The notes beneath the pieces were generated by a model. It was not told the DNA's origin. It saw only the letters and a list, made by a program, of their open reading frames with translations, and did no database searches. A stretch of 64,000 nt of DNA from Chaetoderma sp. LZ-2023a (Eukaryota > Mollusca > Caudofoveata > Chaetodermatida > Chaetodermatidae): the NCBI GenBank assembly GCA_034401795.1, contig CM067363.1, forward strand, positions 33,212,470 to 33,276,469. Reading direction: 5' to 3'. Both the position numbers and the translations under genes were made by a program. Each line of letters opens with the position of its first letter. Within the stretch, counting starts at the first letter, position 1. Below, piece by piece: positions 1,547-55,480 of this stretch.

Positions 1547-2600
1547 TTATTTTTTCAAAACCGACAAGGCGAGAGGATTAGAGGTGTCACGGAGATAATG
1601 GTCTGTAAAACTTGACTCACAGTGCCACTGAGCCACCGACATAATATCATCCACAGGGACCCCATTAAATAGGGCCGTGGATGTCACTACGCCGCGGACA
1701 CTGTGAGCCTTGGCCACGTCAACCTGCTTCCCGGTGGCGGATTTATGGCAAAACTGAATGCATTCCACAATCCACCTGGAAATGGTGTCCTTAGAAGCCC
1801 TCCCATGGGGTTCAATATATGACAACCATAACGCTGACTGGTCGGTGCGCCATGCCGCCGTACGTTGTTTGTACCGGCGCAGCGCCCGGACGGGACACCA
1901 TGCTTTAGAATTAGGATCATATCTAGTTAAAGCAGGCAAAATAATAGGTTGACCTGGATATTTCAACGACTGATTTTTAGCCAAGAAATTAATCCTAGGT
2001 AGCAGCTTAAGGCCTTCCCCTGAAACCACAAAACGGTCATCCTCGGCTGATAAGGCATGAATCTCACTCCTACGCCTAGCCGAGGCCGCAGCAATTAAAA
2101 ACACAGTCTTCAGTGTTAATAGTTTCATAGAAATGGAACTAAGTGGTTCAAAAGGCTTATCACCTAGTACTTGAAGCACTAGCGATAAACTCCAAGACGG
2201 AATCACAGGAGGATTCCTTGGTCTTAGATTGCCCATGCCTTTAATTAATACATTCAATGTATTTACTTCATCACTTCCCCTCTTAGCCAAGCAAGGAATA
2301 ACAGACATTAATGCTGACTTATAACCAGCAATAGAGTTAGGCTTGAGGCTATAGGCATCATAGAGGTGACAGAGGAAATCAGCTACTACTTGAATAGATG
2401 AATCCATTGGATCAATACATCTTTTTGAGCACCATTCTGCAAATCTGTTGATTTTATAATTATATGCTCTGGAGGTTGACCCCCTCCTGGCTTTGGCCAT
2501 AAACATGGCTGCTTGCTCAGAAAAGCCCTCCTTAATTCTAGATTCCTTGACAACATCCACGCAGTCAATCTGAACATTGACGGATTGTTGTGAAGGGCCT
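1547..2600 (-). CDS. DIRS tyrosine recombinase (YR)
   Basis: This is the integrase of the element, a lambda-integrase-type site-specific recombinase acting on circular element DNA. The C-terminal catalytic half shows the expected tetrad region: the first Arg in AASARRRSEIHAL, the His-x-x-Arg box as AHSVRGV, and the nucleophile Tyr in DHYLRD close to the C-terminus (stop at 1547-1549). The N-terminal part (from about 2600) is the DNA-binding helical domain, with 'RRGSTSRAYNYKINRFAEWC'. The frame is open much further, to 4483, but that upstream part overlaps RT/RNase H in another frame and is probably not translated as YR, so the start is undefined. It overlaps the RT ORF by about 215 bases, as is usual in DIRS. 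No stops or frameshifts. Confidence 0.88.
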
Positions 2601-4572
2601 TGCCCTGGAAGATAATATCGTCCATCAGAGGCAGAGGAACCGGATTGCAGACCAGAAGGTCCAGCAGATCCGTATACCATGATCGGCTTGGCCAATCCGG
2701 GGCGATCAGAAGCACTTGGCATTCCTCTTGTCTGATTTTCTGAAGAATTTTTGGAATCAGGATTGCTGGAGGGAATGCGTATGCATACATTCTCCCCCAG
2801 CTGATAGCTAACGCATCTGTTGCGAAAGCGCTTGGATCCGGAATCGGAGAGACGTACGTCGTCATCTTCGCATTCTTCTTCGTTGCGAACAAATCGATGT
2901 TGGGTTTCCCCCAATGGTCGAACAGACGATCCGCCACACATTGATTTAGTTGCCATTCCGTGGGTAAAACACTCATCCTTCGGCTCAATGAGTCTGCAAG
3001 CAGGTTTAACCTTCCCGGAATATGAACTGCTTTCAAGGTAATCTGGTGATCCAGACACCAACATAGCAGTTTCCATGTCATCATACAGAGACTGGGCGAC
3101 TTCGTTCCGCCCTGGCGGTTTATGTAAGTCACAACTGTTGAGTTGTCTGAACGAATAAGAACAATCTTGCCCTGAACTTTCTGTAAGAAATGTTCCAGGC
3201 CCAGGACTACTGCTCTTAGCTCCAGTAGATTTATATGTTCCTGTGACTGTTCCAGATTCCAAAGCCCTGATATCGTGGATTCTTCCAGGCAAGCTCCCCA
3301 GCCCTCCATCGATGCATCTGTATACACAGTCACCTGAGGGTGGGGAGGGGTTAGCAAAACCCCCGGTAAGAGATTCTCTGTATTCAACCACCATTGCAGG
3401 TGGTGAATCAGAGGCGCCAACACTGACACATTCGAGTCCAGCGAACCTGTACTCTGGGTCCATTGTGTCATGAGAAACAACTGGATCGGCCGCCTGCGTA
3501 AGGCGGCCTGAGGAATGACTGGTTCCAACGAAACCATCAACCCCAGCATTCTCAAGTAAACCCGTGCCAGGACATGACGACTGTCGCACACTGACTGAAT
3601 CAACGAGATGAGTATTTGAACCCTCTCCTGAGTAGGATAAACATATCCTGTCTCCAGATCGAAGAACATCCCCAGGTAAACAAACTTCTGGGATGGAGTC
3701 AGCTCTGATTTTGGGAAATTGATCATCCAGCCCAAGTCTGTGAGAATTTTCAAAACAATCTCCAGATTGGCGGACAAACTTTCCCGGGTGTGCGCTTTCA
3801 ACAGCCAGTCGTCTATGTACGTGTGGACTGCTATGCTTCTCCTGCGGAGGTATGCTGTGATCGCAAGAACCACACGGGTGAAAACCCGAGGAGCCGTGGA
3901 AATTCCGAAGGGCAACACCCTGAATTCCCACTGTCTGCCCTGGAATGCAAATCTCAGGAAGCGACAGAAACTCCTGTGGATGGGGATGTGGAAATAAGCG
4001 TCCTTCAAATCTATCGACGCCGTCCACATCCCCCTCTCCAACCCCGCCAACACCGAGCGCACCGTTTCCATCTTGAAACTGGGCGTCTCGATGAACTTGT
4101 TCAATGGCTTGAGGTTGAGAATCGGTCTCCACCCACCGGTGCGTTTTGTTACCAAGAACAGGGTTGAATAGAAGCCCGGACACCTTTGTGCCGGCTGAAT
4201 AGCTCCTTTTTGTACGAGGGAATTTATCTCCTCCTCGATACACAACCTTTGATCTGGATCTCTCGGAACGGGAGTCCAGATTGGCACCAGAGACAGTCGC
4301 GACGGCGGGCCTGTCATCCACTCTGGATGATACCCCACGGAAAGCCATCGCAAGACTAAACGGTCCTGAGTTAACCGTTCCCACTCTTGCATGTGGTCGG
4401 CTAGCCGGCCTCCCACCGGTCCACCTAGGGACCGCGGTGGACACAAGGCATGCAAGAGCGGCACTGTCTCCGTCGCCATACACACCGGCGTGGTCCTTAC
4501 CGCGGTAAGCGCCCTGTCAGGAACGATAACCACGCCCAGATCCTCGCGCGACCCGCCCCGCCCCGCGCGCAC
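2386..4572 (-). CDS. DIRS reverse transcriptase / RNase H polyprotein
   Basis: The 728-residue ORF copies element RNA into DNA. RT motifs are in order: GGWRPILNLKPLNKF (about 146-160), the first catalytic Asp in SIDLKDAYFHIP (D188), FRVLPFGISTAPRVF (217-231) and the active-site YIDDWLL (252-258). RNase H follows with VYTDASMEGWGACL (D419), LLELRAV (E451), RSDNSTVV (D476) and HIPGRLNLLADSLSR (D527), so all four acidic residues are present. Residues 535-728 form the region usual between RNase H and YR in animal DIRS elements. I recognise no methyltransferase signature there but cannot exclude one. The ORF overlaps the gag-like ORF by 56 bases in another frame, so frameshifting or reinitiation is needed. 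The frame is intact. Confidence 0.92.
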   Translation of the reverse strand: MRAGRGGSREDLGVVIVPDRALTAVRTTPVCMATETVPLLHALCPPRSLGGPVGGRLADHMQEWERLTQDRLVLRWLSVGYHPEWMTGPPSRLSLVPIWTPVPRDPDQRLCIEEEINSLVQKGAIQPAQRCPGFYSTLFLVTKRTGGWRPILNLKPLNKFIETPSFKMETVRSVLAGLERGMWTASIDLKDAYFHIPIHRSFCRFLRFAFQGRQWEFRVLPFGISTAPRVFTRVVLAITAYLRRRSIAVHTYIDDWLLKAHTRESLSANLEIVLKILTDLGWMINFPKSELTPSQKFVYLGMFFDLETGYVYPTQERVQILISLIQSVCDSRHVLARVYLRMLGLMVSLEPVIPQAALRRRPIQLFLMTQWTQSTGSLDSNVSVLAPLIHHLQWWLNTENLLPGVLLTPPHPQVTVYTDASMEGWGACLEESTISGLWNLEQSQEHINLLELRAVVLGLEHFLQKVQGKIVLIRSDNSTVVTYINRQGGTKSPSLCMMTWKLLCWCLDHQITLKAVHIPGRLNLLADSLSRRMSVLPTEWQLNQCVADRLFDHWGKPNIDLFATKKNAKMTTYVSPIPDPSAFATDALAISWGRMYAYAFPPAILIPKILQKIRQEECQVLLIAPDWPSRSWYTDLLDLLVCNPVPLPLMDDIIFQGKALHNNPSMFRLTAWMLSRNLELRRAFLSKQPCLWPKPGGGQPPEHIIIKSTDLQNGAQKDVLIQWIHLFK

Positions 4573-6643
4573 CTCGGTGCACGGGCGGCTGCCTGGCTGA
4601 CGGCGGCTGAGGAGCCTGCGCCCCCCTCACTGCTGGCCGAATCGCACGCGGCCGAGGCCGGCGCTGCGACGGCGGCTGGCCTCTGACTTGGCCAGCACCA
4701 CCTCGAGCCTGCAGGGGACGATACGCAGGGGCCGCGGCGCGAACGTTAGCACGACGCAGTACCTCAAACTGTTCGCGCAGCGCCCTCTGGTTATTCACCA
4801 GGGTGACCGTCTCCTGGAGGTGGCGACATCCCTCACCTCCAAAAAGACCAGGACCCGTCATAGGCGTACGGAGTAGCCTATTATACAGGTCCTGAGACGG
4901 GCACAGATTGTCCAGGGCAAATGTGCGTCTTGCCCTGACACTCCTGGTCACCGCCCGCGTCATACAGTCCAGCGCCAGGTTAATACCATCCTGGATGGTT
5001 CGCTGGACCGCGAGCGGGCCTGGCTGGCGCGATGCGGATGCCGTTACTACCCCCTGTAACAGCTGGGAGACGTGGGACAGAGCGGCAATCGAAGCCCTCC
5101 CACTCTCCTCCGCATCACGCAACGCGGTATTCGCCGAACGCAACGCGTTCGCGCACAAGACCCCCGCGTCAGAACGGGATCCTGGCCGCGTATCCTCACC
5201 CAAAGCCGCGCGGTCATCCACGCTGGGCTTGGGTACCACACCGTACCGCTGGTAGTCCAGGGGCACGATGCGACAACGCTTGGCCACCTCGCGAGGGGCC
5301 TTCGCGAGACGTCCACTCGTGTTAATGGACGCCTCCGCCGCCTTGAACATGTCAACGACATGCTCCGCCAGCGGCAGAGAAGGCATAGCGTTAGCAGTTG
5401 GTTTCCCAGCTAACCACGGCGTGTGAACACGGTGGCTAGCCGACTGCTCCACGGGCAGATCAGGCCTAACGCTCACCAACCACTGGCAAGCGTCATACCA
5501 ATCCTCCTCCGTGGCTAACTGCGAGCGCTCTACAAGACGGGGTCCTTCGTCTTCCTCCTGAGCGCAAGCAGTACTTGACGGCGGGTACGCTGATACACCT
5601 GGCAAGCCAGGGAAAACATGCGGGCCTGACAGCACCGGCATGAGAATATCACTGGTTTGACCAGGAGCAGGCACCGCGGTAGAGCGCGGGGTATATACAG
5701 CCCTACCACGGGCCCGGCCAGCACCAGCTACACTCTCGGCAAGCCGAGGTATGCGGTACCGCTGGCCATCAGCAGCGCCCTGGGCCACCACCTGAACCGC
5801 GGACCTTACTCCAGGGTGAGTAATACCGTGGAAAAAAGCGCCTGTATTCCCCGCGAGGGGTGCACAAACGTCTTCATCCATGTCCGCGTCGTCAGACGGC
5901 GACCCCAGCAGGTAATCCTCATCACCCTGGTCAGAAAGATTAGACCCCGGGTCAGCAAAGAGAGCTAACCCGGGCTGACCAGGAACGGTGCCATAGGAGG
6001 TACTGGCCACCGCGGCGTGCGGATACCCCTGGACTGATAAGCAGCCAGCGGGTTCCAGCGACAACCGTCCACGGTCCCCTATCGGCGCGGCAATAAGCCT
6101 GCTGCCAGGGCCGTGGAACGCCCCCTCTAATGGGGCCACCTCTGAATCGTCGGACAACGGAAGCGGACTAAGGAAAATCGATCCAGAGGCGGGGATTACC
6201 TGCTCCGAAGCCGATGATGAGGACAATAAAGGATCTGGTCCAGGAAGCATGCCACGAAGCAACCCTGGAACCAAATCTTTTATTGTCCTCCTCATCTCTC
6301 CCAACATCTCGGTCCGAAAGGTCTCCATATCCACCGCGGACGAGACCTTCCCCTTACCCTTCTCACTTACAACCTCTCGTTTCCGCTTCATCTTCTTCTC
6401 CTCCACTACCACCTTGTCCGTCGCCTGTAAGCAGCACAAGAATTCGGACATTAACTCGCCCCCCCAGTGCTTACATATGTCACAATTAATCAATGGACCA
6501 CAAGGGCTACATCGAAAACACAGATGCGGCCAGAACTTCACATGCATAAAACGTCCACAGGACGCGCAACCCGGTCCCTGAAACAGGGCAAAGGACAAGG
6601 AGTATGAGCAACTAGTTAAGCTTAGAAACTCAATCCAACTCAA
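4517..6643 (-). CDS. DIRS gag-like ORF1
   Basis: The 708-residue ORF sits where DIRS elements carry their gag-like protein. Its N-terminus is Cys-rich (GPGCASCGRFMHV, LCFRCSPCGPLINCDICKHWGG), like a small zinc-binding fold. Next comes a Lys-rich stretch (EEKKMKRKREVV), a long low-complexity Ser/Pro/Gly-rich middle with little recognisable homology, and a strongly basic Arg/Gly/Pro-rich tail (from about residue 650) suited to RNA binding. The assignment rests on position, length and composition. The chosen Met at 6643 is the first in frame; Mets near the Cys-rich block are possible starts. It is GC-rich compared with the AT-rich flanks, which marks the element as an insertion. Confidence 0.72.
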   Translation of the reverse strand: MSWIEFLSLTSCSYSLSFALFQGPGCASCGRFMHVKFWPHLCFRCSPCGPLINCDICKHWGGELMSEFLCCLQATDKVVVEEKKMKRKREVVSEKGKGKVSSAVDMETFRTEMLGEMRRTIKDLVPGLLRGMLPGPDPLLSSSSASEQVIPASGSIFLSPLPLSDDSEVAPLEGAFHGPGSRLIAAPIGDRGRLSLEPAGCLSVQGYPHAAVASTSYGTVPGQPGLALFADPGSNLSDQGDEDYLLGSPSDDADMDEDVCAPLAGNTGAFFHGITHPGVRSAVQVVAQGAADGQRYRIPRLAESVAGAGRARGRAVYTPRSTAVPAPGQTSDILMPVLSGPHVFPGLPGVSAYPPSSTACAQEEDEGPRLVERSQLATEEDWYDACQWLVSVRPDLPVEQSASHRVHTPWLAGKPTANAMPSLPLAEHVVDMFKAAEASINTSGRLAKAPREVAKRCRIVPLDYQRYGVVPKPSVDDRAALGEDTRPGSRSDAGVLCANALRSANTALRDAEESGRASIAALSHVSQLLQGVVTASASRQPGPLAVQRTIQDGINLALDCMTRAVTRSVRARRTFALDNLCPSQDLYNRLLRTPMTGPGLFGGEGCRHLQETVTLVNNQRALREQFEVLRRANVRAAAPAYRPLQARGGAGQVRGQPPSQRRPRPRAIRPAVRGAQAPQPPSARQPPVHRGARGAGRVARGSGRGYRS

Positions 6644-7483
6644 GGAGAAGGAAAACGATCATAAAGATCAATATACATCAAAAACCAGCCTAGCGCTTGA
6701 ATTGCTAATAAATACATAGCCAGCTGATTATGACGTCATTAATCCCGTGACAGGAAAAATTCGATCCCAACAAAACATCCAAGTGCAAAGACGAATTGTA
6801 TGCTGAATGGATAAGTTGACTACACAACCATCAGATACATATAGATAACTCTTTACTGGCAAAAATGTTAATTATCTCCCTTTGATTGTTTACAATAATT
6901 AACATCACCACATTATCAATAACTAGATACCTGACACTTTGTATAGACAAACCATCCAACGTGACGAACCGGAAACTCCACCATCTGCACGCCTCTTAAC
7001 TCTCTCCACCTCATGGGGAAGGAATTGGAACAAGAGGGCAAAGTGAGAAGACCTTTATACCAGGCCTCCAACTCACTGGGCATAATTTTTCATTTGGTTA
7101 GATAACCTAACAGTGTTAGTAGGAAATGGAACCATGGTGGAGAGAATACTAATTCTCTGGTACTGTGACGTCACAACCTAGCGTCATACAGACCTGTGGA
7201 CAGAAACAGAAAGAGAAATTAGTCCTAGGTAGCACCGAGTTGACCTAAACCAACTAACTAAGGCGCTTATCACGGTAAACGCGAGTCCCGGAAACACAAT
7301 ACACCGGGAAGAAAACTCGCTAATTTTACTAGAAGTCACCTGATTTAAAGGTCCTCCGTCCTCCTGTGGCGACGTATTCCTATCCGCCATCCAAAAAAGT
7401 GACTAACACTCCAAACAAACACCACTTAAACAGTTTAAGAGAGCGAAAAAGCTATTGAACAAAAAAACATGTGTGATCTCTTT

Positions 7484-12299: not shown

Positions 12300-15200
12300 C
12301 TATAAATGACACAAAAACAAGAATAAAACAATTTTAAATAACATTTTAATTAAATGTTTGAAATTGATTAATAAAAGTGAGATTTTCTCCGAGAGAATGG
12401 ATGAATCCTAAGTCTCACATTCTACTAGCCTTAAGGTTACTTTGAGATTACGATAAAGAGTAGTAAAAGTATGGGTCTCACCATCGGTAGTGGTCTAGAT
12501 TAGTAAGCATCAGGCATAGACCCGAGTTAAAGCTTAACACGAAAGTCTGGAACAAAACACTTAAGTTACTGCTATAGCGTCTTCTGCATGCTCGATACCT
12601 GTTGACACACCAATATTTTCTGAGCTGCATTTGAAGAACATGTCCAAACCTTGACCATCACTGTTGCGCTAACTTCATAGAGACTGACGGTTGTCATGGT
12701 TGTAAAGCAACAATGAGACACATATAGAATCGCATAGACCTGTGTATCTTAACTTTCATGGGAATGATAGAGCACCAAATGGACCGTTCCCGTTTTAGCT
12801 ATGCTCCGCCCATCTCTAGCTAAGACCCTGTGCCTTTACCATGATAACTCTGCACATCTCACCTGTTTACCTGTGCCTTTACCAAGATAACATCTCACCT
12901 GTTTACCTGCGCCTTTACCAGGATAACATCTCACCTGTTTACCTGCGCCTTTACCAGGATAACATCTCACCTGTTTACCTGCGCCTTTACCAGGATAACA
13001 TCTCACCTGTTTACCTGTGTCTTTACCAGGATAACATCTCATCTGTTTACCTGTGCCTTTACCAGGATAACATCTCACCTGTTCTTCTTCTTCTTTTCGT
13101 TCGCTGATCATACCGCCAGTCCTGTAAGTGACTATCGGCATGATCATAAGCGTTAAGTGCGTGGATCCATGGTTTATTAGAGTGCGCCGTGCGGCCTGGA
13201 ACCTCCGTCTTCAGCACTCGAGGTTTCTGTCCCGTTACCTCACCCTTACCTCCTTTAGTCGCCTCTTACGACACGCAGAGGATACGGAAGGTGTATTCTA
13301 AGCCCCACCTACCTGTTTACCTGCACCTTTACCAGGATAACATCTTACCTGTGCCTTTACCCGGATAACATCTCACCTGTTTACCTGTGCCTTTACCATG
13401 ATAACTCTGCACATCTCACCTGTTTACCCGTGCCTTTACCAAGATAACATCTCACCTGTTTACCTGCACCTTTACCAGGATAACATCTTACCTGTTTATC
13501 CGCGCCTTTACCAGGATAAGTCTGTCCCTCAATTGACACCTCAGAGCACCTGTCTTGTTGAATGAGGTAGTCTTTTATTTCCCAGGCTTTAGCTCCATCC
13601 TTTAACATGAAGATCACTCTGTCTGTTCCAACCACAAATCTATGAAAAAACAATGCTCAAACACATTATAATTTCACAGAGCAAGAAAAACCTATTTTTT
13701 AAGATTTACTGCTGGAATGACTGGCTCTGTTAATGGATACATGTATATCTTGGGACCAGTGCAGAAGCTGTTTGGTCACCCTAACTGTTAACCCTGACCA
13801 CTCTGATGTCACTATTCTATGTTTTACTGTGTCAATAGCAAAGAAACCTGACCACTCTGATGTCACTATTCTATGTTTTACTGTGTCAATAGGAAAGAAA
13901 CCTGACCATCCTGATGTCACTATTCTATGTTTTACTGTGTCAATAGCAAAGAAACCTTACCACTCCAATGTCACTATTCTATGTTTACTGTGTCAATAGC
14001 AAAGAAACCTGACCATCCTGATGTCACTATTCTATGTTCTACTGTGTCAATAGCAAAGAAACCTTACCACTCCAATGTCACTATTCTATGTTCTACTGTG
14101 TCAATAGCAAAGAAACCTGACCACTCCAATGTCACTATTCTATGTTTTACTGTGTCAATAGCAAAGAAACCTTACCACCCTGATGTCACTATTCTATGTT
14201 TTACTGTGTCAATAGGAAAGAAACCTGACCATCCTGATGTCACTATTCTATGTTCTACTGTGTCAATAGCAAAGAAACCGTACCACTCCAATGTCACTAT
14301 TCTATGTTTTACTGTGTCAATAGCAAAGAAACCTTACCACCCTGATGTCACTATTCTATGTTTTACTGTGTCAATAGCAAAGAAACCGTACCACTCCAAT
14401 GTCACTATTCTAGGTTCTACTGTGTCAATAGCAAAGAAACCTGACCACCCTGATGTCACTATTCTATGTTTTACTGTGTCAATAGGAAAGAAACCTGACC
14501 ATCCTGATGTCACTATTCTATGTTTTACTGTGTCAATAGGAAAGAAACCTGACCATCCTGATGTCACTATTCGATGTTTTACTGTGTCAATAGCAAAGAA
14601 ACCTGACCACTCTGATGTCACTATTCTATGTTTTACTGTGTCAATAGCAAAGAAACCTGACCACTCTGATGTCACTATTCTATGTTTTACTGTGTCAATA
14701 GGAAAGAAACCTGACCATCCTGATGTCACTATTCTATATTTTACTGTGTCAATAGCAAAGAAACCTTACCACTCCAATGTCACTATTCTATGTTTACTGT
14801 GTCAATAGCAAAGAAACCTGACCATCCTGATGTCACTATTCTATGTTTTACTGTGTCAATAGGAAAGAAACCTGACCATCCTGATGTCACTATTCTATGT
14901 TTTACTGTGTCAATAGCAAAGAAACCTGACCACTCTGATGTCACTATTCTATGTCTTACTGTGTCAATAGGAAAGAAACCTGACCATCCTGATGTCACTA
15001 TTCTATGTTTTACTGTGTCAATAGCAAAGAAACCTTACCACTCCAATGTCACTATTCTATGTTTACTGTGTCAATAGCAAAGAAACCTGACCATCCTGAT
15101 GTCACCATTCTGTGTTTTACTGTGTCAATAGGAAAGAAACCTGACCATCCTGATGTCACTATTCTGTTTTACTGTGTCAATAGCAAAGAAACCTGACCAC

Positions 15201-18200
15201 TCTGATGTCACTATTCTATGTTTTACTGTGTCAATAGCAAAGAAACCTGACCATCCTGATGTCACTATTCTATGTTTTACTGTGTCAATAGGAAAGAAAC
15301 CTGACCATCCTGATGTCACTATTCTATGTTTTACTGTGTCAATAGGAAAGAAACCTGACCACTCTGATGTCACTATTCTATGTTTTACTGTGTCAATAGC
15401 AAAGAAACCTGACCATCCTGATGTCACTATTCTATGTTTTACTGTGTCAATAGCAAAGAAACCTTACCACTCTGATGTCACTATTCTATGTTTTACTGTG
15501 TCAATAGCAAAGAAGCCTGACCACTCTGATGTCACTATTCTATGTTTTACTGTGTCAATAGGAAAGAAACCTGACCATCCTGATGTCACTATTCTATGTT
15601 TTACTGTGTCAATAGCAAAGAAACCGTACCACTCCAATGTCACTATTCTATGTTTACTGTGTCAATAGCAAAGAAACCTGACCATCCTGATGTCACTATT
15701 CTATGTTTTACTGTGTCAATAGGAAAGAAACCTGACCATCCTGATGTCACTATTCTATGTTTTACTGTGTCAATAGCAAAGAAACCTGACCACTCTGATG
15801 TCACTATTCTATGTTTTACTGTGTCAATAGCAAAGAAACCTGACCACTCTGATGTCACTATTCTATGTTTTACTGTGTCAATAGGAAAGAAACCTGACCA
15901 TCCTGATGTCACTATTCTATGTTTTACTGTGTCAATAGCAAAGAAACCTGACCACTCTGATGTCACTATTCTATGTTTTACTGTGTCAATAGCAAAGAAA
16001 CCTGACCATCCTGATGTCACTATTCTATGTTTTACTGTGTCAATAGCAAAGAAACCTTACCACTCCAATGTCACTATTCTATGTTTACTGTGTCAATAGC
16101 AAAGAAACCTGACCATCCTGATGTCACTATTCTATGTTCTACTGTGTCAATAGCAAAGAAACCTGACCACCCTGATGTCACTATTCTATGTTTTACTGTG
16201 TCAATAGCAAAGAAACCGTACCACGCCAATGTCACTATTCTATGTTCTACTGTGTCAATAGCAAAGAAACCGTACCACTCCAATGTCACTATTCTATGTT
16301 CTACTGTGTCAATAGCAAAGAAACCTGACCACTCCAATGTCACTATTCTATGTTTTACTGTGTCAATAGCAAAGAAACCTTACCACCCTGATGTCACTAT
16401 TCTATGTTCTACTGTGTCAATAGCAAAGAAACCTGACCACCCTGATGTCACTATTCTATGTTTTACTGTGTCAATAGCAAAGAAACCTGACCACTCCAAT
16501 GTCACTATTCTATGTTTTACTGTGTCAATAGGAAAGAAACCTGACCATCCTGATGTCACTATTCTATGTTTTACTGTGTCAATAGCAAAGAAACCTGACC
16601 ACTCTGATGTCACTATTCTATGTTTTACTGTGTCAATAGCAAAGAAACCTGACCACTCTGATGTCACTATTCTATGTTTTACTGTGTCAATAGGAAAGAA
16701 ACCTGACCATCCTGATGTCACTATTCTATGTTTTACTGTGTCAATAGCAAAGAAACCTGACCACTCTGATGTCACTATTCTATGTTTTACTGTGTCAATA
16801 GCAAAGAAACCTGACCATCCTGATGTCACTATTCTATGTTTTACTGTGTCAATAGCAAAGAAACCTTACCACTCCAATGTCACTATTCTATGTTTACTGT
16901 GTCAATAGCAAAGAAACCTGACCATCCTGATGTCACTATTCTATGTTCTACTGTGTCAATAGCAAAGAAACCTGACCACCCTGATGTCACTATTCTATGT
17001 TTTACTGTGTCAATAGCAAAGAAACCGTACCACGCCAATGTCACTATTCTATGTTCTACTGTGTCAATAGCAAAGAAACCGTACCACTCCAATGTCACTA
17101 TTCTATGTTCTACTGTGTCAATAGCAAAGAAACCTGACCACTCCAATGTCACTATTCTATGTTTTACTGTGTCAATAGCAAAGAAACCTTACCACCCTGA
17201 TGTCACTATTCTATGTTCTACTGTGTCAATAGCAAAGAAACCTGACCACCCTGATGTCACTATTCTATGTTTTACTGTGTCAATAGCAAAGAAACCTGAC
17301 CACTCTGATGTCACTATTCTATGTTTTACTGTGTCAATAGCAAAGAAACCTGACCACCCTGATGTCACTATTCTATGTTTTACTGTGTTAATAGCAAAGA
17401 AACTGGTGTATATTTTTCAACAATTTTCGCGGATGGTAGACAACAGCAACATCTTCCACCAAATTTGGTGAAAATGAACAACTTAATCTTTTAATTTAAT
17501 TTGAAAATTTAAAATTTTGAGTGCTAAGGGTTAAAGCATGAATCCATGAAATCTGAATAATTATTAACCCTTAAACATATTTAATGATCAAATCTGCTCA
17601 ATAATATATAAATGGAGGAATCCCGTTTTAGCTATGCAACGCCCATCTCTAGCTAAGCTCCACTCACGCATTGCCCATGTTGGGATCAATTCATGCACTC
17701 CCTGTGTTTCCTGAAAACAATACAAGTAAGCTGTTGAATATTTTGAAACTAATTTGATTGGCAGCAACAGCACCTAGTCAAATTAGTTTCAAAATATTCA
17801 ACAGCATGTTTATTAAATAGTAGACATGCTATTCGTACAACCTTCAGGACCAACTTGACGGACTATTAAGCGCTTAAGACGGACTAAATCAAGCCATTCA
17901 TGATGTACATGTAATTTCAGCCTACATGCATGACATGTGATGATGTTGATTATGCCATCATATATTTGACTCAGAGAAACAAGATTCCTCTATTTTGTCA
18001 TAGAAAATGTCCATTTACAAAACAAGAGAAAACTATTTTCAAAAATTTACTATTAAAATGATAAAGCCAGTGATTCCATGGTCCATAGTAAATTCTAAAA
18101 AGATTTTTCCCTCTTGTCCTGCAAATGGATACAGGGCATAATTTATTAGGAGTAGCATTTTAAATGATTTCTGGAAAACCCAAGATGGCTATCAGAAAAA

Positions 18201-21500: not shown

Positions 21501-24500
21501 ATATTTTTGTTGCAATACAGGACCCTCGGATCTGTACCGACAGATAACCTCTTCAACATAGTTAAGTGGCCAGGATAGAACCAATACCGTGAACCTAGTA
21601 TTCTCCAACGAAAATGATATAGTAGAAAACATTCTGACTGAAGACCCAGTGGGAAACAGCCATGACATCGTGATCTGTTTCATTTAGCTATCGTATCTAT
21701 GTCACCTATTAAACGATATCTTTACTAGAAACAGTGACAAACTATTAAATCAAATATTTTTGCTCGACAAAAAGGCCAAAATCGGCCTCAACCATAGTAA
21801 TGATGACGATTTTGTTGACCATATGTACAAATGTTAGGGTATTAGCCTGATAAGTCAGGTTCTACCAGTACACGCGGCTAATAATATGGGATATATAGAA
21901 ATATTTTCACATTACCATAATAAATATTTGGTGGTAGAATTATTACAATATTTCGCACAGCACAAGAACATAGTGAGTTCTACATGGCCTTATTCCCAAA
22001 AACTGGCTACAAGGCATGTAGAGATATTCTGGTACCGAATATAGTACATTATTGGAATTTGACAATGGTGTGCAACTACTAAATTGCATATGACGAAATT
22101 ACTGTATAGTAAACATTTTTTAAACCTTTGATACTTTATTAGTATTTATTTTATTGACACACTGGCAACGCACAGCTTCAATTTCCACATGCTAACCAGC
22201 CGACAGTCATGCACCCATTAGTTTAATTTGTTGATCACCATCTCCCCGGTCGAGGATCAAACCGTCATACTGCAACTCCGCATGGCATCAGCAACCAGAC
22301 ATCTTTCCACTGGACCACCGCGCCAAGACAAAAAGTCTAGGTTTAGCCAACCAGCTTTCAGATGTCTGATATACTGACATTCTGACGATTCCACTGGACC
22401 ACCGCGCCAAGACAGAAAATCATTGATCTGACAGAATTAGCGCCAATTTTCGGTATGGAATTGTGTACTATGAAATTACGCTCCTGTACAATTTTTTTAA
22501 ATTCGGAATACAACTAGCATATTTCCTATAAGTATTTGTGGGTGAAATTCTGGGGGTGAACGTATTGCAATGAAAACCATGAATTAGCCTACATTTGAGC
22601 TTATTTACGTTACAAAATTTTTCATTTTCTCACTACGTCGTAAGCTTATGCCTATACCTATCTAAACATATGGGTGATATTCTGGGCCGAACCCATTATG
22701 AGCGATATGTCAGGACATATCGACACCTATCTGAATGTGGTGAAGTATGTAGTATCACGATACATGTGTGCGTGGATCGTACTCGTATCGTGTGACAAAG
22801 GATCATGATGCATCGATGCACCGATGGATCATTACACCCCTAGTTTATAATGGTAAAACCGGCCAATACTTCCTCTACAGTTCTCTTAAGGACTGTCTAT
22901 TTGTGTCAACTTGTCGTTTATAATGGTAAAACTGGCCAATACTTCCTCTACAGTTATCTCGAGGACTGTCGATTTGCAGGCTAAGAGAAAACTATTTTTG
23001 AAAATTTACCACGGGAATGACTGGCTCGGTAGCCAGTCATTCCAATGATAAATTTTCAAAAATAGTCTTCTCTTGGCCTGCAAATGGACACTGACTAAAC
23101 AAATTTAGATTTTCTTGACCATTAACCCGCTAATCATCAAACCGGTCAAAAAAACACCTCATAAAAAATAATTTTCCTAAATTCCATTTATAAACTTACA
23201 AAAAATCCAATCATTCACTGAGCAAAAATTTCAATTTGCTTGAACTCTTGACACATTAAAGGCTTAATTGATAAAAGACACCCTTTAAGTGCTTTGAAGC
23301 ACTCTGCTTGACTCAAGAGAGATTATAGCGCTCAAGTCCTCACAAAACCTTTAGCACTCATATCAACCAAAAATGGCTTCTGCAGTGGTCTTGAGAAATG
23401 TACATATGCAGACTAAGACAAGACTATTTCTGAAAATTTACCACTAAAATGACAGGCTCGATAACCAAGCCAGTCATTCCAGTGGTAAATCTAAAAAAAT
23501 AGTCTTCTCTTGGTCTGCAAATGGACATTTTCTATGACAAAATCCAAATTTTCTTGAATAAATTTGATGGTTAAAGGGTTAAATGCTAAATCTGGTGACT
23601 TTCCAAAAATGTTAAAAGCTTACCTGATACAGTCGCAAACATCATGAGTGATCTCCCCTTCTTACTCTCCTTCAGTATGCTCTCCGGGTTTTTTGGATCG
23701 AATTTAGAGATATCAATTTTGGGTTGCTCTCGTTTCCATTCAGGTAATTCATCTTCTTCTAATGGCTCATCCTCTTCCTGAAATATAAAATAAAAAATGG
23801 TCAAATTACCCTCTCACATAACCCTCAACACTGTGTAACATAAGGATCAAATTACCCTCCCACATTTCCCTCGACACTATGTAAGGATCAAATTACTCTC
23901 CCACATTACCCTCGACACGGTGTAAGAATCAAATTACCCTCACACATTACCCTCGACACCATGTAACGTAAGGATCAAATTACCCTCAAACATTACCCTC
24001 GACACCGTGCAAGGATGAAATTACGCTCCACATTACCCAGGGTGTGTACACCTTTCAGGATTTTAAATTCCATGACTTTTCCATGACTAAAATTAACAAA
24101 TTCCATGACCTCCAAGAATCAATATCTCAGAAACAGAAGACTTTAAAATATTACTGGAATGGTATATATTATGTGGGGCTATTACTGCAATTATTGCAGC
24201 CTAATGTGGCAAGAACCTCTCGGTAATTTAATTTAAATTATTTTGAAACTAATTTCACTATGTGCATTAATATATAAATAAAGAAATCCAACATTATATA
24301 GGAATGATTTAAAGATTAACGGTAATAACCCTTTCACAGATAAATCCTTGAAGAACTAAATTCTGTAATACTTATTCTGATTATTTTGAAATTAATTTGA
24401 CTGGAAGCTGTTGCTGCCTAAGCCAGTCAATTAGTTACAAAATATTCAACTGACAACAATTTTCTTGTATGGTTTCCTTGTAAATGCGGTATCAGGAATT

Positions 24501-27500
24501 CAAGGGTGAAAGGGTTAAGGGCACTAGCTACAATGTATCATCATCATCATGGCATCATACAGTACAGCTCGGAGATAACTTAAAATAAAATGCGTCTGCA
24601 ACGCGTGCATGACGCGTCCATAGTGGGTCTATTTCAAAATAATGGATGCATCACTTTCCCGTTGTGAACAGTAAAACAACACGGTGTGAAAGTAAAACAC
24701 ATGGCTTGGACAGTTTGACAATGCATCAGAACTTACATGTATTACACAATGCATTTATGATATTGGTTCATGGCGAACACAGGTGATGCGTAGAAGTGAT
24801 AATGAAGTTGCTTACGGATAATTTTCACTACTATTAATCTATGTCAAATCTCGCCAGTCGGCATGTTTCGCTGCGCTGGATGTTTATAAAAGTTAAATGT
24901 GAAACGAACCGATGTTTACGGTTCTTGCAGCAGATGCAAAACGTTCAGGGGCGCAAAATGTTCAGGGGCGCAAAACGTTCAGGGGCGCATCGTTACATTA
25001 ATTCTCAACCAGGAATCATGATTTTGTGTTTCGTAATATTTATAATTTTGATTTTTAATATTATGTCCCGTTGTCTTTTTTAGGAAAACTTTCTCATATT
25101 TACTTTTGCCCCTTCTAGGAAATGTAATGTACCGCTAAGTTTGATTGGATCCCGGGTAGTTGGAAACATGGAGTTGGTATGTACGCCGGGTATTATGCAA
25201 TGCACATACGAATCTTTTAAACTCATTAAAAATTTGGCATCTGTTCCGTTTTGCTTTTAACAACGCATTTGGCACTATCTCTGGGGGACATCAAACAAGT
25301 TCAAACTTGCTTATTTACGCATTTAATGCTCGTTCTCAATGCATATATTTATTATTTTAAATGCATCAAAAAAATTAACTAGATGCGTTGTGAATGCATT
25401 GTGTTTTTAAAACCGATGCGTTGGAAACGGGCCTTCAACGCATCATGCACGCATTTCAGACCCATTTGTACGTTAAGTTATCTCTGAGCTGTACTGCCTA
25501 ATCAGTACATGTAAATGCATTCGGCAGTATATTTACTGGCGAGATTTTTGGTCACTTGGCCGATTTCGTCCCGGCCGACATGGTTAAATTACATTCTTCC
25601 GAGTATTAATCAGCCTCCACTATAGGGCGAGTTTACGCCATCACTCTCGTAGCTACTCGAAGCTCTCCTCCTATTTATCTGGATTGCACGAAGTCTCTAC
25701 TCGGGTACTAATATTAGCCTCTTCGTGCTACACGCATAACACCCTAAACTCGTCCTATATAGTGGAAGCTAATACATTACGTGATTTCTATTTTTTCGCA
25801 ACAACATTTTATGTCAAAATTTGGATTAATTTTAATTAAATAAAAATGTGAATTATACACAATATCTAGGCGGTCCCAATTAATAATTTCACTCCTGTGA
25901 TGAAGGATATAAGGTATACATTAAGCATAGCCGTAAGGTAGTAAGAATTTCTAGCATGAACAATTCAAAATTTTCAATTTTCGTGCTATTTTTGTATAAT
26001 TTTTTTCAACTTTTTTCTTGAAATATACCTAATATATACAGCAGAATTTTATGCCATCATTTTTTTCTAAGCGAGGTTTTCATTTTCCATGACTGACCAA
26101 AATTACGATTTTCCATGACTTTTACAGGCCTGGAATTTAGATTTTAAAATTCCATGACTTTCCAGGATTTCCATGACACGTGCGAACCCTGTTTACCCTC
26201 GACACTGTGTGTGGATCAAATTACCCTCCCACATTACCCTCGACAACGTGTAACGTCAGGATCAAATTACCCTCACACACTACCCTAGCCATGTGTAAGG
26301 GTCAAATTACCCTCCCACATTACCCTCAACAACGTGTAACGTAAGGATCAAATTACCCTCCCACACTGCCCTCGACACCATGTAAGGATCAAATTACCCT
26401 CCCACATTACCCTCAACACCGTGTATTGCCAGGATCAAATTACCCTCTCACACTACCCTCGACACTGTGTAAGGATCAAATTACGCTCCCACATTACCCT
26501 CGAAACTGTGTAAGGATCAAATTACCCTCCCACATTACCCTCGACACCGTGTAACATAAGGATCAAATTACCCTCCCACATTAACCTTGACACAGTGTAA
26601 CGTAAGTATCAAATTACCCTCCCACATTACCCTCGACACTGTGTAGCTTAAGGATCAAATTACCCTCCACATTACCCTCGACACTGTGTAAGGATCAAAT
26701 TACCCTCCCACATTTCCCTCAACACTGTGTAAGGATCAAATTACTGTCCCACATTTCCCTCGACACCGTGTAAGGATCAAATTACCCTCCCACATTACCC
26801 TCGACACTGTGTAACGTAAGGATGATGATTTGTTTGGTTTAAGGTTTTTGAGCAGCTCACACCTTGAGTTGAGATTTTACTAATACATGTCGCCTCTGCC
26901 TTGAGTTTGTTGTCTAATATTGGTACCTCCCCATCTGGTTCAATTGTGAAGACGCCACTGAAAAATCCTGATAGGATGTTAGATTTTTGCCTGTCGTCAC
27001 TGGTTTTCATAGATTTTGGATCTGTAGGGTCTGTACAAAGATCTCCTATTCCTGCTCTGGTTTTGCTCTTTGAGGTAGAATACCAAATTTGGTTGAATTC
27101 CACCACAATAATAGATTCATTACACCATATACATACCTCACAATACATTAGACTGGAAAAGAGACACATAATTTATAGAAAACATATAGGCCTTCTGGAA
27201 ACTGTACAGTGACGGGCAACTAAAGTAGTACCAGACCTATCATACCTAACCTATGAAGCCAGGCTTAAAATACTCAATTGACCAACTTTGGTATATCGAA
27301 GAAAAAGGGGGATATGATAGAGACCTACAAAATCCTAACTAAAAAATATGACCCAGAAACCTGTGAATTTTTTCAGTTAAGAGAAAATCTTATAACTAGG
27401 GTTACAGTCTAAAGTTATATACAAACCAAGACCAAGACTCGACTTGCAAAAATACTCTTTCAAACATCGAGTTATAGACTTATGGAATGGCTTACCACAA

Positions 27501-29772: not shown

Positions 29773-31339
29773 GTGTTCGTGCACGCACACGTGTTGTGGT
29801 TGAGAGATTGATATACAGTTAAGCCTGTCTATAACGCACACCTAGCGACCACCAAAACATGGTCAGTAAAGAGAAGTGGTTGATAAAAATACATCGTGTA
29901 ATTATCAGTCTAAACAGTGTTTGGGGTCACAATGTGTCGGTACTTACGAGCACCCGTTTTTAAGAACCACCAGCTAGTGGCCCCGAAAGTAAGTCGCCCT
30001 TATAGACAAGTTTGCCTGCATAAGCATTTACAAATAATATTGGTAGTTTAGAACAAGTTTGACTTTATTTAACTGATTAGCATAGAGAAATCATTGAGCA
30101 CCATGGTAGGCATAGCTAACCAAACCATTTAATCTGTTGCAGGGAAAGTTATGGCAAGTGGTCATCCAATGACATGGAGCGTGCTCTGTCTGCACTCCGA
30201 GGTTGAGGAATTGGTTTGAATGCAGCAGCTCGAACTTACAGTGTACCTAAGGCTACATTAAAACGGCATCTGGACTTTAAGAATAAATTTGCAAATGGCC
30301 CCACAAGGCAGTTTGGTAGGTCAACTGTACTACCAGTCGAGTTAGAAGAGGAATTGGTTGAGCACGTCTTAAAACTAGAAAGCATGTTTTTCGGTCTTAC
30401 CAGGAGAGATCTTATGTCACTGGCATTCCAGCTTGCACAGAGAAATGGCATTCGACACGTTTTCAACAAGGATAAGGAAAGCGCTGGAAAAGACTGGTTT
30501 CAGTCGTTTTTGAAGAGACATCCTCAAATTGCACTCCGTCAACCAGAGGCTACATCTTTAGCACGGGCATCAGGTTTTAACCGAGAGAGTGTGAATAAAT
30601 TCTACGATATGCTAGAAGGCATTCTTGATAAGAACACAATGGACGCAACGCGAGTCTTTAACATGGATGAGTCGGGTCTAACAACAGTACAGACACCACA
30701 GAAAATATTAGCATTGAAAGGAAATCATCAAGTTGGTGCAATGACAAGTGCAGAGTGTGGCGTTAACACCACTGTTGTTTGTTGTGTCAGTGCATCGGGA
30801 CAGTATATTCCACCAATGATACTGCTTAAACGTAAAAGAATGAAAGATGAGCTGAAAGACAGTGCTCCGCTGAGGAGCTTAGTGTTATGTAATGACAGCG
30901 GGTGGATGGATCAAGAACGATTTCTATTATGGATAGAACATTTCCTGTCTGTTGTGAAGCCTACAAAGGAAATCCTAGTTCTCCGTATTATGGATGGTCA
31001 TAGTTGACACACTAAGAATCTGGAAGCAATCAATATGGCTCGGGAAAATGGACTCATTATGCTTTCGCTACCACCACACACAACACAACTGGATGTGGCG
31101 TTTTTTAAACCCCTGAACACATACTATAATCAGGCTGCTGAACGGTGGTTATGAGACAATCCAGGCAGAGGAATTACAACATTCCAAGTTTCTAAATTAT
31201 TCGGACAAGCATACATCAAAGCTGCCACAATGGCAAATGCTGTTAGTGGCTTTGCTAAATATGGTATTTGGCCATGCACTAGAGATGTCTTCGAAGAGCA
31301 TGAATTCAAACCGTCTGCCTTATCAAAACAAGCTACAGA

Positions 31340-31830
31340 TCCCGCAACTACCCCGAGTGTCAGTACAGCGATGGATCCGACAATTACCCCGAGTGTCAGT
31401 ACAGCAACGGAACCCACGACTACCCTGAGTGTCAGTACAGTGACAAATCCCAGAACTACCCCGATTGTCAGTACAATGACAGATCCCACAACTAGCCCGA
31501 GTGTCAGTATAGTGACGGATCATGCAACTCCCCAAGTGTCAGTACAGCAACGGATCCTGCAACTACCCCCAGTGGCAGTTCAGCGACAGATCATGCAACT
31601 ACCCCGAGTGTCAGTACAGCGACAGATCCGACAACAACCCTGAGTGTCAGTACAGCGACGGATCACGCAACTACCCCAAGTGTCAACATAGCGATGGATC
31701 ACACAGCTACCACAAGTGTCACTAAAGCGATGGATCCCACAACCACCCCCGAGTGTCAGTACAGCGATGGATCCCGCAACTACCCCGAGTATCAGTACAG
31801 ATACGGATCACGTAACTACCCCGAGTGACA
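31340..31830 (+). repeat. 30-bp coding minisatellite in the transposase linker
   Basis: About 15 units of ACTACCCCGAGTGTCAGTAC AGCGACGGATCC type encode repeats of TTPSVSTATDP. Unit lengths vary between 27 and 33 bases, and single-base deletions shift the frame (for example near 31527). Confidence 0.85.
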
Positions 31831-41782: not shown

Positions 41783-42282
41783 NNNNNNNNNNNNNNNNNN
41801 NNNNNNNNNNNNNNNNNNNNNNNNNNNNNNNNNNNNNNNNNNNNNNNNNNNNNNNNNNNNNNNNNNNNNNNNNNNNNNNNNNNNNNNNNNNNNNNNNNNN
41901 NNNNNNNNNNNNNNNNNNNNNNNNNNNNNNNNNNNNNNNNNNNNNNNNNNNNNNNNNNNNNNNNNNNNNNNNNNNNNNNNNNNNNNNNNNNNNNNNNNNN
42001 NNNNNNNNNNNNNNNNNNNNNNNNNNNNNNNNNNNNNNNNNNNNNNNNNNNNNNNNNNNNNNNNNNNNNNNNNNNNNNNNNNNNNNNNNNNNNNNNNNNN
42101 NNNNNNNNNNNNNNNNNNNNNNNNNNNNNNNNNNNNNNNNNNNNNNNNNNNNNNNNNNNNNNNNNNNNNNNNNNNNNNNNNNNNNNNNNNNNNNNNNNNN
42201 NNNNNNNNNNNNNNNNNNNNNNNNNNNNNNNNNNNNNNNNNNNNNNNNNNNNNNNNNNNNNNNNNNNNNNNNNNNNNNNNNN
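41783..42282. other. Assembly gap, 500 N
   Basis: Exactly 500 N, a conventional placeholder for a gap of unknown size. Open frames spanning it are meaningless. Confidence 0.99.
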
Positions 42283-55079: not shown

Positions 55080-55480
55080 ATGATTTCCAGTTTATCCATC
55101 AATCATATGACGTCATAATCAACTATGCGCCGTGTAGCACGACGTCATAATCAAGTACGTCATAGATAAGTTCGGCACGAACACATAATTGATGCCAACT
55201 AAGCGTTGTTGTACGAATTGTATGTCTTTACTATTTAACAATCATGCTCTTGGATATTTTGAAACTAATTTGCCTGGGTGTTGTTGCTATCAGAGGCAGC
55301 AACAGCACCCAATCAAATTATTTGCAAAGCATTCAACAGCTTCTTCTTCTTCTTTTCGTTCGCTGATCATACCGCCAGTTATGATCATGTCATTCAACAG
55401 CTTACGTGTAGCTTTCTGGAAATTGAGATTCAGAAAGTGCAGGGATCGCTCGATCCCTACACGGCCAATTTAGATCATGT
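55080..55480 (-). mobile_element. MITE-B copy with a SINE scrap inside
   Basis: Standard inverted copy (ATCATATGACGTCATAATC; core near 55250-55340). It is interrupted at 55343-55390 by a 48-bp retroposon fragment with a 13-bp target duplication. Confidence 0.82.
55343..55390 (-). mobile_element. 5'-truncated SINE, 48 bp
   Basis: Flanked by CATTCAACAGCTT on both sides (55330-55342 and 55391-55403). On the minus strand it is the 3' end ACTGGCGGTATGATCAGCG with an AAGAAGAAG tail, the same end as the element at 13086-13311. Confidence 0.88.

Follow-up and report, generated by a model that had tools for sequence, protein, structure and literature searches.

The MESD gene of the mollusc Chaetoderma sp. 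LZ-2023a, found on the minus strand of a 64-kb stretch of contig CM067363.1 (the window; coordinates of minus-strand features run downwards), carries a minisatellite that crosses the border between exon 4 and intron 4. Its tandemly repeated 36-bp unit joins the 28 bases that end exon 4 to the 8 that open intron 4 (CAG/GTAAGATG), and beyond the authentic donor the array holds ten further CAG/GTRAGATG donors, one chimeric CAG/GTAGGT donor and one dead donor. Our analysis suggests that this boundary minisatellite is probably a tolerated intronic repeat, with mostly canonical splicing at 13491 and a minor, extended MESD arising from the donors at 13455 and 13419.

The MESD gene and its boundary minisatellite

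MESD comprises five exons with GT-AG borders and matching phases, namely exon 1 (coding part, 28470-28285), exon 2 (coding part, 23777-23624), exon 3 (coding part, 19238-19157), exon 4 (13639-13492) and exon 5 (coding part, 12299-12171), the last of which encodes a C-terminal KTEL followed by the stop codon. The joined exons translate into 232 residues ending in KTEL. This product is a member of the Mesd family of Pfam (PF10185; 8.8e-72, 240.5 bits against a cut-off of 24.4), and its best match among MESD structures is PDB 2kgl (9.8e-65), which we take to be mouse MESD.

The exonic part of the repeat unit corresponds to the last 28 bases of exon 4 (13519-13492), and tandem units cross the exon 4/intron 4 border. 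The first half of the array (13519-13313) consists of the exon-end unit followed by units B, C, D, a short unit E and unit F; the second half (13083-12827) ends in an incomplete unit, which another dispersed repeat truncates at 12826 ahead of the donor, and the two halves are separated by a 228-bp retroposon (13312-13085). A reading made from the sequence alone had recognised the repeat as a copy of the exon 4 end plus its donor. That match is real, but the exonic part spans 28 bases and not 30, followed by 8 intronic ones, and the interval then proposed, 13419..13639, is far too short for an array that reaches 12827 and is broken by a retroposon. In the units compared, 28 of the 36 positions correspond to exon 4, with two to four differences. 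Ten matches to the repeat 36-mer at up to three mismatches are present in the window, the exon copy included, where none would be expected. Starting from the authentic donor, the GT[A/G]AGATG motif recurs in steps of 36, 36, 43, 28, 270, 72, 36, 36, 36 and 36 bases; the step of 270 represents one unit plus the retroposon, and that of 72 two units whose intervening donor is now ATGAGA. The copy number should be treated with care, as there is a single assembly, three adjacent units are identical and the window contains a 500-base N gap elsewhere (41783-42282).

A chance repeat or an unrelated minisatellite is ruled out by the 36-mer match count, the excess of donor motifs and the comparison of units with the exon. 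Membership of a dispersed repeat family was likewise rejected: a 401-base query spanning exon 4 and the beginning of the array found a single candidate locus, that of MESD, in the genome (2.44 Gb in 2753 contigs), in a search that skips very common words. As expected, no relatives of the locus were found in the prokaryote and virus sets genome_contigs (73 pattern stretches) and viral_contigs (5). The 80 residues that the second half of the array encodes matched no Pfam family, and Rfam and tRNA scans of the window gave no match.

Donor sites in the array

The authentic exon 4 donor, GTAAGATG, lies at 13491-13484 and has a predicted U1 duplex energy of -11.0 kcal/mol. It is followed by the second (13455-13448) and third (13419-13412) donors, both CAG/GTGAGATG, by a fourth at 13376-13369 and, after the 28-base step, by a fifth, CAG/GTAAGATG, at 13348-13341. 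The chimeric donor sits at the edge of the retroposon (13312), and the second half of the array contributes donors at 13078, 13006, 12970, 12934, 12898 and 12862 as well as the dead CAG/ATGAGATG at 13042. Cutting the strand at the donor motif confirmed that the sites at 13491, 13455 and 13419 are exactly 36 bases apart, as the sequence-only reading had it. Besides the ten CAG/GTRAGATG copies, the array has one dead and one chimeric donor, and its last unit is truncated. Of the 12 CAGGTRAGATG motifs in the window, 11 belong to the MESD array (authentic donor included); the expectation from shuffled sequences is 0.06 per window.

The units also differ from the exon in ways that bear on splicing. 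At unit position 21 the exon has A and all nine intronic units compared have G, and at position 19 the exon has G and eight of the nine have A. Together these two positions result in nine secondary CAG/GTAAAC sites in the array, none of which is present in exon 4, where the corresponding sequence is GCGGATAAAC. The comparison covers ten copies including that of the exon, and leaves aside the short unit, the unit truncated by the retroposon and the copy at the retroposon end.

Predicted U1 pairing of the main array donors ranges from -11.0 to -12.9 kcal/mol, and the extra donors equal the authentic one (-11.1 versus -11.0 kcal/mol). Duplexes of -11 or lower are found at 22 of the 4091 GTs on the strand, namely at 12 of the 62 between 13491 and 12827, a count that includes the authentic donor and the retroposon edge, and at 10 of the 4029 elsewhere. 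The other authentic MESD donors score -6.9 (exon 1), -11.0 (exon 2) and -6.7 (exon 3). The score is a simple duplex energy and not a trained splice-site score. Since the energies are equal, donor strength cannot separate 13491 from its copies.

Predicted products

Only the donors at 13455 and 13419 keep the reading frame among the 11 extra main donors tested. They would add 36 and 72 nucleotides, and thereby 12 and 24 residues (VRCYPGKGAGKQ and VRCYPGKGAGKQVRCYLGKGTGKQ), and the inserted 12-mers are free of stops. An in-frame TAA follows the third donor at 13395-13393, where the frame has been shifted by a 7-base insertion, TGCAGAG, in the next unit; the earlier proposal that the second and third donors extend the protein in frame before a stop appears thus holds. 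All nine remaining main donors, the fourth and fifth among them, reach this same TAA and are predicted to yield 222 residues ending in ...VRCAELSW, without exon 5. According to the 50-base rule, nonsense-mediated decay is triggered by a stop codon lying further than this upstream of a junction. The TAA lies 16 bases from the junction for donor 13376 and 44 bases for donor 13348. For the remaining seven the distance is 80 to 530 bases, and these are therefore expected to trigger decay. Two of the secondary sites were tested, 13463 with a predicted product of 201 residues and 13384 with one of 222, and neither is in frame with exon 5. Loss of exon 5 entails loss of the KTEL ending; in human MESD disease the mutant protein is described as not being retained in the endoplasmic reticulum (ER) (PMC11607015).

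Among the eight full donor-to-donor units there are seven distinct changes, four non-synonymous and three synonymous, and 12 of the 36 possible transitions in the unit are synonymous. Both the dead donor and the frameshifting insertion have been tolerated in the array. Judged from these comparisons the repeats show no sign of coding constraint, the changes being too few either to claim or to exclude it.

Growth of the array and the retroposon within it

The array is probably of exonic origin. Because the GQ-YPGKG segment is shared with the MESD of 2kgl, the direction of copying is read as being from exon to intron, and for the same reason the repeat is unlikely to have been the ancestor of the exon end. 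The single locus found by the 401-base genome query points the same way. A 72-bp block of two units, C-D, is present both upstream (13455-13384) and downstream (12898-12827); the two blocks are identical at 71 of 72 positions and both contain the TGCAGAG insertion. Furthermore, the 28-base parts of units B and F are identical, as are three adjacent units of the second half. Taken together these identities are the mark of repeated duplication within the array, and the doubled 72-bp block lends indirect support to an array length that may vary between haplotypes or cells.

The retroposon carries a GAA tail. Of 254 candidate copies in the genome 40 were scored, the MESD copy included, and the other 39 are 97-99% identical to it, so the element has probably been active recently. 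In ten of the 11 other copies that were read, a word of 9-15 bases stands at both ends in the manner of a target-site duplication; the remaining one is without it (6 bases). All 11 have GCCCT before the start point of the MESD copy (GGCCCT in seven, TGCCCT in four), whereas the MESD copy has the AAACAG of the array in that place, which suggests that at least some of the array was probably in place before the insertion. The literature gave no match for a stretch resembling that of the retroposon but differing from the window in its first base. A short copy of the retroposon, at about 55341-55390, is bounded by an 11-base direct repeat.

It is proposed that a tandem duplication of the 36-bp segment at the exon 4/intron 4 border, 28 exonic bases plus 8 intronic ones, would have started the minisatellite. 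Slippage or unequal exchange, point mutation, the 7-base insertion and the insertion of the retroposon would then have followed, and the start of intron 4 would in this way have become filled with functional-looking donors.

Splicing at the locus

If the array is a tolerated repeat, most transcripts would use 13491 and the array would largely be borne as part of the intron, by analogy with the 'mirages' of amphioxus, which are minisatellites of the same kind. Leaky use of 13455 and 13419 would probably give a small percentage of mRNA encoding a MESD that is 12 or 24 residues longer, with the added residues placed between the folded domain and the tail. Donors further in, which would lead to the 222-residue protein without exon 5 or to mRNA decay, should be disfavoured. 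Several observations weigh against this picture. In U1 pairing the extra donors match the authentic one and that at 13312 exceeds it (-12.9), so the strength of the donors gives no reason for 13491 to dominate. In some experiments with duplicated donors it is the intron-proximal site that is preferred. In addition, in human ABCA7, which has a variable number tandem repeat (VNTR), transcripts with premature stops are described as increasing when decay is blocked (PMC5954066), and the 2% retention of one unit reported for that gene may therefore understate donor use.

It is unlikely that the array is instead a working length-variation device, in which 13455 and 13419 are used well above leak and MESD occurs in forms of 232, 244 and 256 residues, the set varying with the repeat number of the individual. 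Such a device could draw on two in-frame donors that equal the authentic one in U1 pairing, on stop-free 12-mers and on an insertion point located directly after the part of MESD solved in 2kmi, the chain of which ends at YPGKG. Against this, a direct reading of the units shows that each would bring one cysteine into an ER protein, no coding constraint is seen among them, mirages elsewhere seem to leave splicing undisturbed and the one-unit retention of ABCA7 is unchanged with VNTR size. Somewhat more doubtful again is the view of MESD as a length-polymorphic chaperone, which a hypervariable array of equal, in-frame donors would lengthen by one or two YPGKG modules, with a further cysteine in every module, in proportions that depend on repeat number. 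The sequence-only reading had presented the array as a natural route to protein-length variation, a claim left unsupported by the seemingly undisturbed splicing of mirages, the level of about 2% in ABCA7 and the fact that just two of the 11 extra main donors keep the frame.

The concentration of strong U1-pairing sites, with 12 of the 22 strongest on the strand lying between 13491 and 12827, could also be understood as a landing platform for the U1 small nuclear ribonucleoprotein, which, bound at uncut sites, would affect how exon 4 is defined, how exon 5 is handled or whether polyadenylation occurs prematurely. In single-molecule work a 5' splice site at the exon end is described as recruiting SRSF1 and as raising U2AF and U2 at the 3' splice site upstream (PMC8724738), and in ABCA7 skipping of the next exon grew with VNTR length (PMC5954066). 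The array contains a broken donor and a retroposon, which speaks against tight selection, and a role as splicing modulator is considered improbable. Hardly to be expected is a nascent intron or exon gain, by which array units or the retroposon would be turned into an additional exon lying between exons 4 and 5. Boundary duplications are described as having made new introns elsewhere (PMC4974935, PMC2812944), and in the retroposon an acceptor-like CTTACAG (last base at 13122), together with the donor at 13078 that immediately follows the (GAA)n tail, would delimit an exon of 43 bases. However, 43 bases break the frame, and the acceptor-like site, judged by eye and not by a program score, is without a long pyrimidine tract.

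The tolerated repeat thus remains the preferred reading, and the array amounts to a natural experiment on the spliceosome's choice between equal donors. Counting the authentic one, 11 near-identical donors stand in a single natural intron at steps of 28 to 43 bases, with one step of 270 and one of 72, and as they are near-equal, order and context rather than U1 pairing must decide between them. If the second and third donors are used, repeat expansion would have been turned into protein extension.

Other repeats and elements in the window

Intron 1 of MESD contains minisatellites with units of about 41-46 bp (23801-24038 and 26193-26823). The match between unit and intron stops about 20-24 bases short of exon 2, leaving the exon out, and the unit recurs at 17 further places on the strand. 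Much of intron 3 is taken up by a 54-bp array of about 67 copies (13793-17403), which stops about 150 bases short of exon 4. Just before exon 3 there is a decayed duplicate of this exon together with its upstream flank (19666-19551 and 19318-19285, minus strand), which is 74% identical over 116 and 86% over 36 aligned positions, has its donor GT changed to GC and is interrupted by a TTAA-flanked insert. This is a second boundary-spanning duplication in MESD, probably an older one.

Outside MESD, long open reading frames (ORFs) are found at 1547-6658 on the minus strand, in a layout that looks like that of a DIRS-type element; one ORF encodes a reverse transcriptase domain (RVT_1, 3.4e-22). On the plus strand a transposase ORF at 30207-31007 contains DDE_1 and Tc5-type DNA-binding domains and is followed by a 36-bp minisatellite (31331-31827).

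Comparison with known boundary repeats

The human ABCA7 VNTR is located in intron 18 and has a 25-bp unit that starts from the donor GT and includes the donor of the exon (PMC5954066). In some mRNA exactly one unit is retained through use of the second-unit donor, which shifts the frame and leaves the transcript open to decay. Two frameshifting isoforms, one of them this retention, are given as 14 ± 6 and 2 ± 1% 'respectively', which by the order of naming makes one-unit retention the 2 ± 1%. VNTR size does not alter this retention, which speaks against repeat number tuning an extended isoform; skipping of the next exon rises strongly with size, so such arrays can change splicing in another way (PMC5954066). 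Both the ABCA7 VNTR and the MESD array start from the authentic donor and consist of units with donors. Unlike the intronic ABCA7 unit, that of MESD is exonic at 28 of 36 positions, and retention of one or two units would keep the frame.

Internal tandem repeats at exon-intron boundaries are also described in human duplicated genes, where they account for 27 intron modifications (PMC2812944). These change splicing or gene structure and were found by comparing paralogues from segmental duplications, whereas the MESD case concerns one gene. In a further case a tandem duplication across an intron-exon boundary gave rise to a new intron (PMC4974935); the MESD array shares the boundary-crossing duplication and gives no evidence of a new intron. 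The notothenioid antifreeze gene was left out as a precedent, an origin at an exon-intron boundary not being stated in the available part of its source.

The MESD array belongs to an already known kind of repeat, the boundary-spanning minisatellites represented by the amphioxus mirages. These minisatellite-like, length-unstable repeats lie across exon-intron borders in Adh3, the globin genes BflGb6 and BflGb9, TnC and PGBD5, and the data are said to suggest that regular splicing is seemingly undisturbed (PMC3087553, PMC3902484). Many of their units keep AG/GT signals; BflGb6 copies are 81-100% alike, and Adh3 units measure 10-72 bp (PMC3087553, PMC3902484). As in mirages, the MESD units span the exon-intron boundary and many, not all, keep their AG/GT. 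The gene is a different one, and the genome, at 2.44 Gb, is several times as large as that of amphioxus, so that a boundary-spanning minisatellite is here seen in a genome whose size speaks against amphioxus. What seems to stand out in MESD, and to set its array apart from the mirages, is the number of near-identical donors (11), a unit length (36 bp) that is a multiple of three and the inserted retroposon.
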